Below, piece by piece: positions 15,627 through 25,208 of a DNA stretch of 41,177 bases. The translations under genes and the position numbers were made by a program. The notes under the pieces are model-generated. The model worked only from the letters and a program-made list of their open reading frames with translations, did no database searches and had not been told where the DNA came from. The DNA lies in IMG/VR virus record IMGVR_UViG_3300027793_002186, positions 1-41,177 of that record; one strand, 5' to 3'. The stretch is from a virus. The first letter of the stretch is position 1. The number at the start of each line of letters is the position of its first letter.

Positions 15627-16457
15627 ATGAGTCTTACTTTATTCAGCATAACAAATATACAGCATGACATTACAGCATTTTCATTAAACAAAACCCGCAG
15701 TTGTGTGCCTGCAACAAAAACTTTATTGATAAGTGATCAAAAACCATCTGGAGACACAACCATTGGTTGGTTACCAATTGCCCAAAATTTTGGAATGTTG
15801 GAGTATTGTAACTTTTGCCTAAAAGAGATGCATTCTGTCATAGACACTGATTTTGTTTTGATTTGCCATTATGATGGTATGGCTACAAACCCACAGTATT
15901 GGACTGATGAATATTTAGAGTATGACTATGTGGGATCTCTTTCCCATGTGAATTATCACCCTATGAAAAACAGTCTCCAGCTGAGTGGTTTTTACGAACA
16001 ACACAAGCACAAACCATGGTTTACCTGTGGCGGTGGCTTAAGTTTAAGAAGCAAGAGGCTGTTAAACATTTTGGCCAACGATCCACAAATAAAAACTTTA
16101 AATTTTCAACCCAATTATGCAGAGCCCTTTATTTCAGAAGATGCAGTAATAACCCTACTGAACAAAGAATACCTAGAAAAAGCTTATGGTATAAAGTTTG
16201 CTCCATTGCATTTGGCCATGCAATTTTGTGCCGAAGTATTGACTGGATATAATTATGCAATGGGGTTTCATGGCTGGCACAACGCTCCACTATTTTTGAC
16301 CGAAGAAGAGTGTTTGTTTTATTTCCCATTGTTCAACAAATCAGGTTATCATCAAATGAGTGCACAAATGCAAATATGTAAGCATCATATTATGATGCAG
16401 GGATATTTTAGATTACGTGACTATATGATTTCTGAAAACAAATGGTTGATTTATTGA
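15627..16457 (+). CDS. DUF5672-type putative glycosyltransferase
   Basis: 276 aa. The motif order fits the DUF5672 family: FVLICHYDGMATNPQYW, YDYVGS, a GGGLSLRSKRLL loop, SEDAVI and GFHGWHN. These proteins have a GT-A-like layout, with an acidic HYDG motif and a final HGWHN motif, and are usually annotated as glycosyltransferases. The acceptor and donor are unknown. No strong ribosome site precedes the ATG. It heads a run of overlapping genes for sugar or small-molecule transfer. Confidence 0.7.
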   Translation: MSLTLFSITNIQHDITAFSLNKTRSCVPATKTLLISDQKPSGDTTIGWLPIAQNFGMLEYCNFCLKEMHSVIDTDFVLICHYDGMATNPQYWTDEYLEYDYVGSLSHVNYHPMKNSLQLSGFYEQHKHKPWFTCGGGLSLRSKRLLNILANDPQIKTLNFQPNYAEPFISEDAVITLLNKEYLEKAYGIKFAPLHLAMQFCAEVLTGYNYAMGFHGWHNAPLFLTEEECLFYFPLFNKSGYHQMSAQMQICKHHIMMQGYFRLRDYMISENKWLIY

Positions 16458-16458
16458 T

Positions 16459-18069
16459 ATGGCAAATATTTTAGGGTTGAATTTTTCACATGATGGTGCA
16501 GTTGCTCTAGTTGTTGATGGACGATTGCACTCAGCATTAGCTACAGAAAGGATTACTCGCAAAAAGAAAGCACATGGTATCACCAAACAGCTTGTAGAAA
16601 GTTTATTAAATAACGCTGGATTAGCGGTACAAGACATAAAAGCTATTGCTCTTGCAGATTACATACAACAATATTGTGGTGATGTACTACATTTGTTTGA
16701 CGGTATTGGCCTACCGGTTAGAGAAACCAGTTACACATTGTATAATAACGATGTTAGGCAACTTACAGGCAAGTTTATGGGTAACTGGGAAGTTCCTGTC
16801 TATGTCTTGCCACATCATCTAGCACATGCCAGCAGTAGCTTTTACACAAGTAATTTTGAAAGTGCAGTATGTTTAAGTGTTGATAGCAGTTTTGGAAATT
16901 TACAAGATAACAGCCTTATACTAGAAGGCAACGATGTGCAGTTGCTAACTGTTGATTGTCCTAATCTTATTAGTGGTATAGGTTATGCAACATTTACAGA
17001 GCTATTGGGATATCAGCCAGCGTTTGCTAAGGCTGGTATTACCATGGGTTTAAGCAGTTACGGTGCAGAAATGCTTAGCCTAGAAAAAGATTATTTTTTG
17101 TCTAAAATGTTCTGGCCAAACAACGACACAGGCGTCCAAATTGAATTAGAATATAGAAAATTTTGGAGTGACGTCTGGCAAAAGTTTAGTGCAAAACATC
17201 CCCATGAGCTTACTTTCCAAGAAAGTGCAAATTTAGCAGCCACTATTCAATATTTGCTAGAAAAAAGCCTAATCAAAACAGCTGAAAATATCCGCACACG
17301 TTACCCATATAAAAATTTATGCCTAAGCGGAGGAAGCTTTTTAAATTGTATCAGCAATACTGCAATCAAAAATCTAGGGTTATTTGACAACATACATCAT
17401 TTTCCAGCTTGTGGGGACGATGGAAACGCTGTTGGGGCAGCTTTATGGGTAGCACATACCTTATATCAAGCACCTCGACAACAATATTCAACAGCTGATC
17501 TTGCATACCTAGGCTTGAATCAAATATCCATAACTGATCCTGATTATTCTAGAGTATGCGATATATTGTCACAAGGAGGTATTGTGGCATGGCATATGGG
17601 ACGTAGTGAATATGGGCCAAGAGCCTTAGGAGCTCGCAGTTTGCTAGCAGATCCTAGGAAATATCATATGAGAGAGAAAATTAACTTTGCAGTAAAAAAC
17701 CGCGAATGGTTCAGACCTATTGCACCAGTGGTGTTAGAGCATTTATGTCATGAGTGGTTTGATTTAGAAGGGCCTAGCCCTTATATGCTTTACACTGCAA
17801 ATGTTTTACAACCTGAAAAAATACCAGCAGTAACGCATGTTGATAACAGCAGTCGTCCTCAGACTGTATCTGAGTTGTCCAACCCTTACTTGTGGAAACT
17901 ATTGAACGAATGGAACAATCAAACTGGGGTACCCGTGTTGGTCAACACGAGTTTGAATGGTGGAGGAGAGCCTTTATGCGAAACCGAACAAGACAGTTTG
18001 AAATTTTTCCAAAAACATGATAGTGTTACTGCTTTAGTTTTAAATGGTAAACTTTTGGAGAGAAAATGA
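16459..18069 (+). CDS. Carbamoyltransferase (NodU/CmcH/TobZ family)
   Basis: 536 aa, the usual length for O-carbamoyltransferases. The N-terminal Kae1-like domain starts ILGLNFSHDGAVALVVDG and has the metal-ligand pattern HHLAHA (His119 and His123). CGDDGNAVGAALW lies at about 320. The C-terminal YrdC-like domain has YGPRALGARSLLADPR and REWFRPIAPVV, and ends with VLVNTSLNGGGEPLCET. The family transfers a carbamoyl group from carbamoyl phosphate, through carbamoyl-AMP, to a sugar or antibiotic hydroxyl. Here the acceptor is probably a glycan built by the neighbours. The next gene overlaps it by 4 bp (ATGA). Confidence 0.93.
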   Translation: MANILGLNFSHDGAVALVVDGRLHSALATERITRKKKAHGITKQLVESLLNNAGLAVQDIKAIALADYIQQYCGDVLHLFDGIGLPVRETSYTLYNNDVRQLTGKFMGNWEVPVYVLPHHLAHASSSFYTSNFESAVCLSVDSSFGNLQDNSLILEGNDVQLLTVDCPNLISGIGYATFTELLGYQPAFAKAGITMGLSSYGAEMLSLEKDYFLSKMFWPNNDTGVQIELEYRKFWSDVWQKFSAKHPHELTFQESANLAATIQYLLEKSLIKTAENIRTRYPYKNLCLSGGSFLNCISNTAIKNLGLFDNIHHFPACGDDGNAVGAALWVAHTLYQAPRQQYSTADLAYLGLNQISITDPDYSRVCDILSQGGIVAWHMGRSEYGPRALGARSLLADPRKYHMREKINFAVKNREWFRPIAPVVLEHLCHEWFDLEGPSPYMLYTANVLQPEKIPAVTHVDNSSRPQTVSELSNPYLWKLLNEWNNQTGVPVLVNTSLNGGGEPLCETEQDSLKFFQKHDSVTALVLNGKLLERK

Positions 18070-24277: not shown

Positions 24278-24284
24278 TACCCCA

Positions 24285-25208
24285 ATGCGATCAATGGTAA
24301 AACTCATTCATGCTGATGGTTTCCTTTCAGCTCATGATGCGCAGAAAGCTGCAAGATTAGTTCAAGGACTTTCATTTTCACCCAAGTCATATGGCTGGGA
24401 ATTGGAAAATTTTAACATGGTTTTTTCAAAACTTGAACCTATAATGAGTCAGGTGTTGGGTGAACGTGTTGTAATTGATCACCACAGATCTGGCATTTTT
24501 CGAAAACCCCTAAACAACGTTATTCATTTCGAAGAGTTTCAGTCCTTAAATGAATGGGCCTTTGTGTGTGCCTTAGAAAAAAACACTTTGAACCTATATC
24601 ACCATATAGACACAGACGGCAACACAGATGCTGAGACAGCGTTGGACAACTACAAGTTCAATTATATGAACCTTTTTGAGTGGAATTTGCATACAAACAT
24701 TTTACTGGAGCCCAGTCAAGGTGTGTTTTTTCGGCCATGGGTCTTTCATAGCCTTGATCAAGGTCTTGTTCAGTACTATCGACTATTGACGGACCGTAAA
24801 TTTAGAGTACTGGTAATGGGACCGCCAGGCAGCGAACGAGCACTCATGAGCCAAAAATTACATGAAAAAATCAATGGCAGTAGCTTGATCAAAAGCATGG
24901 CAGTGAGAAAGAAAGACAAGGACATTGATTTTTCCTCAGATGGTAGGTTAAGACAAACCTATCGAATGCTGACTCTTGCACGAAACGATAGGAGTGATTG
25001 TGTTATATTGGATCATGCATGTGTTTTAGATGAACAACGACAAATCATAAACCCTGATGTGTTAGTGTATATGAAAGGCAAAGAGCTGTGGGATAAAAGT
25101 AACGAATGGGAAGAACCCAAATATTATGACTTTGCCTTCTCAGAAGTATCAGATGAGGCAGTGTCTGCGATCTTGAATCGTATAGAGACTAAGAGAATCA
25201 CCTTATAG
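24285..25208 (+). CDS. Oxygenase/cupin-like domain fused to degenerate APS-kinase-like domain
   Basis: 307 aa. Residues 1 to about 175 look like a double-stranded beta-helix protein: VIHFEEFQSLNEWAF, then GVFFRPWVFHSLDQGLVQYYRLL, a pattern met in phage 2-oxoglutarate-oxygenase or cupin-like proteins. The second half (about 180-300) follows the plan of phage APS-kinase-like P-loop proteins: RVLVMGPPGSERALMSQKL, RQTYRMLTLAR, CVILDHACVLDEQRQIINPDVLVYM and a final KYYDFAF. The Walker A reads GPPGSERA and has lost the GK[S/T], so kinase activity is doubtful. It follows Mrp by 7 bp. With the sulfotransferase it hints at sulfate chemistry, but that is inference. Confidence 0.55.
   Translation: MRSMVKLIHADGFLSAHDAQKAARLVQGLSFSPKSYGWELENFNMVFSKLEPIMSQVLGERVVIDHHRSGIFRKPLNNVIHFEEFQSLNEWAFVCALEKNTLNLYHHIDTDGNTDAETALDNYKFNYMNLFEWNLHTNILLEPSQGVFFRPWVFHSLDQGLVQYYRLLTDRKFRVLVMGPPGSERALMSQKLHEKINGSSLIKSMAVRKKDKDIDFSSDGRLRQTYRMLTLARNDRSDCVILDHACVLDEQRQIINPDVLVYMKGKELWDKSNEWEEPKYYDFAFSEVSDEAVSAILNRIETKRITL

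Follow-up and report, generated by a model that had tools for sequence, protein, structure and literature searches.

Phages are known to glycosylate their own virions, and annotated genomes have revealed sugar islands near cyanophage fibre genes. The glycosyltransferases of mycobacteriophages act on virion proteins (Freeman 2023, cited in PMC12619734), the glycans being placed, in that citing account, on the capsid and tail tube. The heptosyltransferase TibC heptosylates autotransporters encoded beside tibC (PMC4358343), and the Fe(II)/2-oxoglutarate (Fe/2OG) oxygenase JMJD5 hydroxylates a peptide from the RCC1-domain protein RCCD1 in vitro (PMC5862942). Here, we analysed a cluster of putative modification enzymes located downstream of RCC1 propeller genes in the viral record IMGVR_UViG_3300027793_002186, which was examined as a single window comprising the complete IMG/VR record (41,177 bases). 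The cluster occupies positions 15627-25208 of the + strand, with overlaps or gaps of a few bases between neighbouring genes. The initial annotation had recognised this tight packing; its count of ten genes was one short of the eleven (g1-g11) that its own list contained. The cluster is likely to represent the modifying half of a late propeller-plus-decoration operon, by which a T4-like phage decorates its own RCC1 host-binding appendages. This assignment rests on the gene identities, two folds, RCC1-specific linkage, a late-type promoter layout and the absence of membrane candidates.

Two described systems resemble the locus in different respects. The tail locus of S-SRM01 (gp334-gp349) likewise carries a distal fibre, RCC1, a TPR-containing glycosyltransferase (TPR-GT), an Fe/2OG oxygenase, YkgJ, a sulfotransferase, a glycosyltransferase and an epimerase in one block. 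Unlike in the window, no carbamoyltransferase, Mrp or fused oxygenase/adenosine-5'-phosphosulfate (APS) kinase was found in it, and its oxygenase belongs to the 2OG-FeII_Oxy_5 family. The islands of the marine cyanomyoviruses P-SSM2, S-SSM7 and S-CAM1 share with the window a GT9-like gene (35-38% identity) beside a Nol-like carbamoyltransferase gene (27-30%), downstream of tail fibres, but they contain heptose kinase/isomerase genes and no RCC1, TPR-GT or detected sulfotransferase. The early remark that the cluster is 'not standard phage content' is thus only partly right, as the carbamoyltransferase and GT9-like pair was already known in these viruses. The element that appears to be new is a recurrent RCC1-bound cassette of oxygenase, TPR-GT9, methyl- and sulfotransferase; a literature search, the coverage of which left out most subscription journals, did not find a published description of such a cassette. 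In contrast to the mycobacteriophage glycans, the proposed targets in the window are RCC1 appendages, and sulfation, methylation, carbamoylation and hydroxylation are proposed in addition.

The linkage between the enzymes and RCC1 genes was assessed by a profile scan of IMG/VR, which returned 457 TPR-GT relatives, 80 of which were taken for locus analysis. Distinct loci were defined by clustering at 80% identity, and those of at least 15 kb were retained; the scans share contigs and are not independent samples. The 28 distinct g4 (TPR-GT) loci contained RCC1 in 27 cases, the short methyltransferase in all 28, the sulfotransferase in 24 and the oxygenase in 22. When starting from the oxygenase, RCC1 was present in 30/30 distinct loci of at least 15 kb (37/38 clusters when short loci were included), making this a family almost confined to RCC1 loci. 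When starting from RCC1, TPR-GT was found in 33/40 distinct loci and the sulfotransferase in 30/40; nine of the 13 distinct g7 (YkgJ) loci of at least 15 kb carried RCC1. In 247/249 loci (copies not removed), g4 and its nearest RCC1 gene shared a strand, and the median gap was 595 bp. The typical gene order was fibre, RCC1, DUF4376 protein, RCC1, oxygenase, RCC1, sulfotransferase, (YkgJ), methyltransferase, TPR-GT, and oxygenase open reading frames were often placed between RCC1 genes. Among 50,697 phage records in GenBank, RCC1 (E<=1e-10) was detected in 11 and g4 in four, all belonging to those 11 (S-SRM01 twice, BUCT-ZZ01 and AG-345-E08). The cultured carriers are the cyanophages S-SRM01, with RCC1, TPR-GT, YkgJ and sulfotransferase genes interleaved, and BUCT-ZZ01 (host Synechococcus elongatus PCC 7942), in which the TPR-GT ends in a fused methyltransferase (31% identity, E=1e-25) directly after an RCC1 gene. 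In the BUCT-ZZ01 record (L008:22829-24934 and 21066-22778), the RCC1 protein is annotated as a 'BNR repeat domain protein' and the fusion as the next hypothetical protein. Modification of the virion surface, as proposed in the initial annotation, is the best-supported reading, and the clustering of homologous neighbourhoods that it had suggested as a check revealed the core enzymes beside RCC1 in dozens of diverged phage lineages. The linkage specifically involves the RCC1 propellers and not the collagen fibre: collagen-like repeats occurred in 9/30 oxygenase loci versus 30/30 for RCC1, and the fibre was rejected as an oxygenase substrate analogous to that of collagen hydroxylases. A single TPR-GT locus with full flanks (L089) had no RCC1 match within 10 kb; two sulfotransferases, YkgJ, a methyltransferase and TPR-GT were present in it.

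One divergent relative (L179/L295, with copies in contigs of up to 328 kb) carries all eleven genes in the same order. The enzymes were 51-85% identical between the window and this relative and the RCC1 proteins 44-67%, with the nonsynonymous substitution rate (dN) well below a saturated synonymous rate (dS), indicating purifying selection. Since the order is conserved in a divergent relative and dN lies well below dS, the set reflects more than chance.

The proposed substrates are encoded immediately upstream of the enzymes, behind a collagen/S74 fibre gene (4431-6482). Six tandem RCC1 genes were assigned: two at 6807-9466 (6807-8159 and 8156-9466; PF00415/PF25390, 146-206 bits) and four at 10150-15590, starting at 10150 (profile match), 11531 and 12951 (visible repeats) and 14292 (phrog_4219, 78 bits). 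A DUF4376 tail-fibre-like gene (9484-10125; PF14301, phrog_10508 tail fiber) lies among them. RCC1 proteins have been detected by mass spectrometry in virions of the E. coli phage W70 (phrog_4219) and of GAP32 (PMC11370258, PMC5259590), and the family of the W70 virion proteins is the same one that matches the window at 14292-15590. In Clostridioides and Brevibacillus phages, RCC1 genes are likewise located amid tail-fibre or adhesion genes. The T4 major capsid family was identified in 15 of the 18 carrier contigs tested. As psbA was present in two carrier contigs only, the hosts are probably not restricted to cyanobacteria. The description of fibres and propellers as Ser/Tyr-rich fits the fibre at 4431 (Ser-rich, 5.1% Tyr); the propellers are Ser/Thr- and Cys-rich, with only 1.1% Tyr. 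The Cys content of the six RCC1 paralogues (6807-15590) is unusually high at 4.1%; across 74 groups of relatives, the median is 0.85%. All four groups with Mrp have Cys-rich RCC1 proteins (p=0.0017, uncorrected for phylogeny and with possibly shared ancestry among groups), which we regard as a lead only, and a tie between YkgJ and Cys-rich propellers was discarded (p=0.43). Weak associations of composition with enzyme presence were observed for Thr with the sulfotransferase (p=0.004) and Pro with the oxygenase (p=0.006), among several tests without correction.

The promoter layout is consistent with late expression of the propeller and enzyme genes. The T4-type late-promoter-like motif ATAAATA occurs four times on the + strand of 1-37231, and all four copies fall within the 2.3% of bases that are intergenic (p=3e-7). 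One copy, (T)ATAAATA at 6505-6511, opens the RCC1/decoration unit; no copy was found on the + strand between 6512 and 25234, and the next, at 25235-25241, forms the downstream border. In the relative, the motif precedes the same gene (L179:6354) and its next copy lies ahead of the RyR gene (L295:11276); the retrieved portions of the intervening sequence contained none. The motif TATAAATA precedes 9/79 distinct sulfotransferase upstream regions, compared with 0.2% of within-gene windows. Scans for sigma-70 promoters and terminators gave no excess over shuffles. Judging by these motifs, the RCC1 and enzyme genes are apparently bracketed as one late unit both in the window and in its closest relative, which argues against expression long before virion assembly, an outcome named at the outset as one that would contradict virion modification. 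The gene directly behind the downstream motif (25247-25825) encodes an RyR-domain protein (PF02026, 56 bits) and is kept in the relative.

Nearly all of the enzyme names given in the initial annotation were upheld by profiles or folds (Pfam, PHROG and AlphaFold2 (AF2) models). For g4 (18612-19973) and g11, no usable sequence match was available in Pfam or, for g4, in PHROG, and both proteins were modelled from alignments of relatives; a family missing from the resulting structure-alignment lists was not counted as excluded. The g4 model (mean predicted local distance difference test score, pLDDT, 93.1) consists of an all-helical TPR N-domain and a GT-B domain of the GT9 type. It matched WaaF (Z 17.3) and TibC (Z 16.3), and the top Foldseek matches were the TPR glycosyltransferases SPY and OGT. 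The G208-D209 (GD) motif was invariant in 49 sequences, and when model residues 197-445 were aligned with WaaC 1-322, D209 fell near residue 13 (by offset only). In its combination of a TPR arm and a GT-B domain, g4 resembles OGT/SPINDLY (GT41), although its GT domain is a much closer fit to GT9 than to GT41 structures. With the TibC/AAH autotransporter heptosyltransferases it shares the GT9-like GT-B fold and a gene position adjoining a putative adhesin target. However, it differs from TibC in lacking the N-terminal beta-barrel, in place of which it has TPRs, and the four-Cys iron finger, having no conserved clustered Cys set of the TibC/BAHT kind. Lipid and protein acceptors cannot be told apart by fold class; the modelled TPR arm favours a protein.

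The second core enzyme, g5 (19963-20742), was identified as a sulfotransferase (PF13469/PF00685) dependent on 3'-phosphoadenosine-5'-phosphosulfate (PAPS). Its GLPR motif, R113 and S121, corresponding to the 5'-phosphosulfate loop and the 3'-phosphate-binding Arg/Ser, were invariant in nine sequences, and the best PDB profile match was TPST1 (1.1e-12). Tyrosine sulfation by g5 was set aside, as the catalytic EETR region of TPST aligns to non-equivalent residues and the RCC1 proteins are poor in Tyr; for the same reasons, the sulfate is more likely placed on a glycan. The third, g3 (18066-18611; PF08241), is the short S-adenosylmethionine (SAM) methyltransferase that accompanied g4 in every distinct locus.

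The predicted fusion of an oxygenase and an APS-kinase-like domain in g11 (24285-25208) was borne out by its AF2 model (pLDDT 94.2), in which an Fe/2OG-oxygenase fold (about residues 1-170) is followed by an APS-kinase fold (170-307). The N-domain is a double-stranded beta-helix matching SnoN (5ep9, Z 12.5 over 150 residues) and PiuC (9qn4, Z 12.1), and the C-domain matches the APS-kinase structure 7yq0 (Z 17.9, 137 residues). H79-x-E81 and H148 (first-row numbering), followed by an R/K near the C-terminus, were invariant in 16 aligned sequences; by analogy, this HxE...H arrangement fits an Fe/2OG metal triad. The P-loop (GxxxxGK[ST]) reads GPPGSERA in the window, so that its lysine is lost, as in most fused relatives, whereas stand-alone APS-kinase relatives retain an intact GLPGSGKT and score above the Pfam APS_kinase (PF01583) cut-off. 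On account of this altered P-loop, the C-domain was classed as APS-kinase-like and probably inactive. No separate APS kinase was found in the searched contigs of the closest relatives of the window, in which PAPS would therefore come from the host; nine other carriers have a phage-encoded APS kinase. In four loci (L081:12400-13227, L090:5520-6359, L068:9815-10621, L036:13044-13889), an intact APS kinase is followed in the same protein by an HxGH nucleotidylyltransferase domain (GRWQPWHxGH) at the C-terminus, for which only weak Pfam matches (CTP_transf_like or ATP-sulfurylase) were obtained; such fusions are possibly compact PAPS-making enzymes. The preceding gene, g10 (23486-24277), encodes an Mrp/NBP35 iron-sulfur (Fe-S) carrier ATPase (PF10609, 277 bits) with a Walker A motif (GKGGVGKST) and a CxxC motif (CENC). 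It was directly upstream of fused g11 in 26/26 loci in which the next gene was visible, a single contig type contributing several of these as copies. The pair lies inside an RCC1 array without sugar genes in L296 and L301.

The remaining genes were assigned as follows: g1 (15627-16457), DUF5672, glycosyltransferase-like (PF18922, 43 bits; conserved in L295); g2 (16459-18069), a NodU/TobZ-type O-carbamoyltransferase (PF02543 and PF16861; phrog_1601, 357 bits); g6 (20730-21557), a GT2 glycosyltransferase (PF00535, 33 bits); g7 (21547-21927), a YkgJ-like (YkgJ/CxxCxxCC) Cys cluster protein with a weak Pfam match, phrog_9155 (65 bits) and invariant Cys residues; g8 (21911-22576), an accessory class I SAM methyltransferase (PF08241, 51 bits); and g9 (22554-23483), a GT9-like protein (phrog_8954, 264 bits). 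The usual catalytic Asp of GT9 is missing from g9, with GGxGR/GGxGK replacing GD in 16/16 aligned homologues (GGAGR in the window). Alignment of g2 to GdmN and TobZ showed a conserved HH..H (HHxxH metal) motif and a Kae1-like N-domain joined to a C-domain. Used alone, the carbamoyltransferase gave no matches in a scan of viral contigs; profile alignments were needed.

The carbamoyltransferase bears on two further explanations. The likeness to nodulation-factor pathways noted in the initial annotation is real but distant, g2 scoring 178.5 bits against the NCBIfam NodU equivalog cut-off of 1000 and the NoeE match 31 against 500. Synthesis or modification of a small secreted metabolite or free glycan of the nodulation-factor or aminoglycoside kind, unrelated to the virion, would agree with these similarities to NodU, NoeE, TobZ and GdmN; yet the eleven genes include no dedicated scaffold-forming enzyme or exporter, and the RCC1 linkage would go unexplained, leaving this origin highly improbable. 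Modification of phage DNA is conceivable in that a phage carbamoyltransferase of the same superfamily makes 5-carbamoyloxymethylcytosine from 5-hydroxymethylcytosine (PMC8670742) and some phage glycosyltransferases act on DNA, here on hydroxymethylated bases. The DNA-acting carbamoyltransferases co-occur with thymidylate-synthase homologues, and those in unmodified contigs adjoin glycosyltransferases (PMC8670742). No PF00303 match was found in five contigs with the carbamoyltransferase, up to 328 kb in length, and this absence of thymidylate-synthase homologues disfavours a DNA substrate; in addition, the cluster lies within a late unit of tail genes and its core occurs without the carbamoyltransferase. 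We consider DNA modification very unlikely.

A division of labour within the cluster was also weighed, in which the core (g3, g4, g5 and the oxygenase) acts on RCC1, and the accessory carbamoyltransferase, GT9-like and DUF5672 proteins form a separate carbohydrate module acting on host glycans. The carbamoyltransferase is rare among core-cassette phages, and its pair with the GT9-like gene occurs without RCC1 or g4 in P-SSM2, S-SSM7 and S-CAM1, no RCC1 match having been obtained in the marine islands that have the pair and lack TPR-GT. The carbamoyltransferase/GT9-like/DUF5672/Mrp part of the cluster is accessory. However, core and accessory genes are thoroughly mixed within what appears to be one unit, both in the window and in its closest relative, and such a division seems rather unlikely.

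The main rival is modification of host lipopolysaccharide (LPS), capsule or S-layer glycans for receptor alteration or superinfection exclusion, with RCC1 linkage arising through co-evolution with the receptor-binding protein. In its favour, LPS heptosyltransferases are the classic representatives of GT9, g6 shows a weak resemblance to GtrB-like proteins of O-antigen conversion (phrog_841, 20 bits), and similar marine cyanophage genes sit with heptose genes. In contrast to a Gtr seroconversion cluster, no flippase, polymerase or membrane-anchored transferase candidate was present: a convincing transmembrane segment was absent from all cluster enzymes, the hydrophobic peak of g4 sitting within its confident GT-B fold. 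Moreover, late-type promoters leave little time for host-surface protection, and the enzymes are interleaved within RCC1 arrays, with the oxygenase family tied to RCC1 in nearly all clusters. Comparative genomics supports modification of virion proteins over that of host LPS, and we judge the latter unlikely. Several observations nevertheless weigh against decoration of the propellers. Receptor-altering enzymes would also be expected to link with a receptor-binding protein; the structure of g4 is no further from the lipid-A-core heptosyltransferase WaaF than from TibC, which modifies proteins (Z 17.3 versus 16.3, effectively tied); g4 was not detected in 7/40 RCC1 loci; the promoter motifs are consensus matches; g1, g2, g9 and g10 occur too rarely for their target to be read from linkage; and RCC1 amino-acid composition gives no clear acceptor signal.

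Decoration of the RCC1 appendages could proceed as follows. The propellers, as receptor-binding or fibre-tip-like virion proteins, and the modifying enzymes would be made together in the cytoplasm late in infection. The oxygenase domain of g11, served by the Fe-S carrier g10, would hydroxylate the propellers; the TPR arm of g4 would recognise them and its GT9-fold domain attach a sugar, which the GT2 and DUF5672 proteins may extend. The glycan would then be capped by the methyltransferases g3 and g8, the carbamoyltransferase g2 and the sulfotransferase g5, so that the appendages would bear a coat that is anionic and particular to the strain. A late cytoplasmic RCC1-modifying kit of this kind would account for the way the enzymes are linked to and interleaved with RCC1 genes, for the promoter layout and for the absence of membrane proteins. 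We infer RCC1 as the acceptor, together with the acceptor residues, the order of steps and the use of the coat, which might be shielding, tuning of adhesion or mimicry of host glycans. The specific form of a dedicated multistep pathway, in which an RCC1-bound Fe/2OG oxygenase (loaded in one clade by its own Fe-S carrier) creates or prepares sites on which TPR-GT9 assembles a glycan bearing methyl, sulfate and carbamoyl groups, is offered tentatively; if true, it would give phages an equivalent of the hydroxylation and glycosylation known from collagen or adhesins. The JMJD5-RCCD1 precedent differs in being eukaryotic and arginyl, with a weak substrate, and supports neither a target residue nor close homology in the phage case. 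In large aquatic phages, glycan genes usually carry an auxiliary or LPS label with no target named, and the cassette gives a concrete one. If the propellers are modified, phages would use sulfate, carbamate and methyl groups to tailor the proteins with which they contact the host, with implications for host range and for the avoidance of particle adsorption or grazing in water.

Just outside the cluster, an NAD-dependent sugar epimerase gene (27447) and a DegT aminotransferase gene (28311) occupy 27447-29615 of the + strand (PF01370, PF01041; 82-83% identical in the closest relative) and are possible donor-sugar genes. An ATP-dependent protease homologue (384-2804; phrog_4871, 821 bits) is encoded just upstream of the tail module, and a glutathionylspermidine synthase-like gene is located at 33948-35135 (phrog_6215, 405 bits). 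The GC content rises to 0.50-0.57 at 30000-36000, compared with 0.36-0.40 in the decoration cluster, which suggests a mosaic origin.

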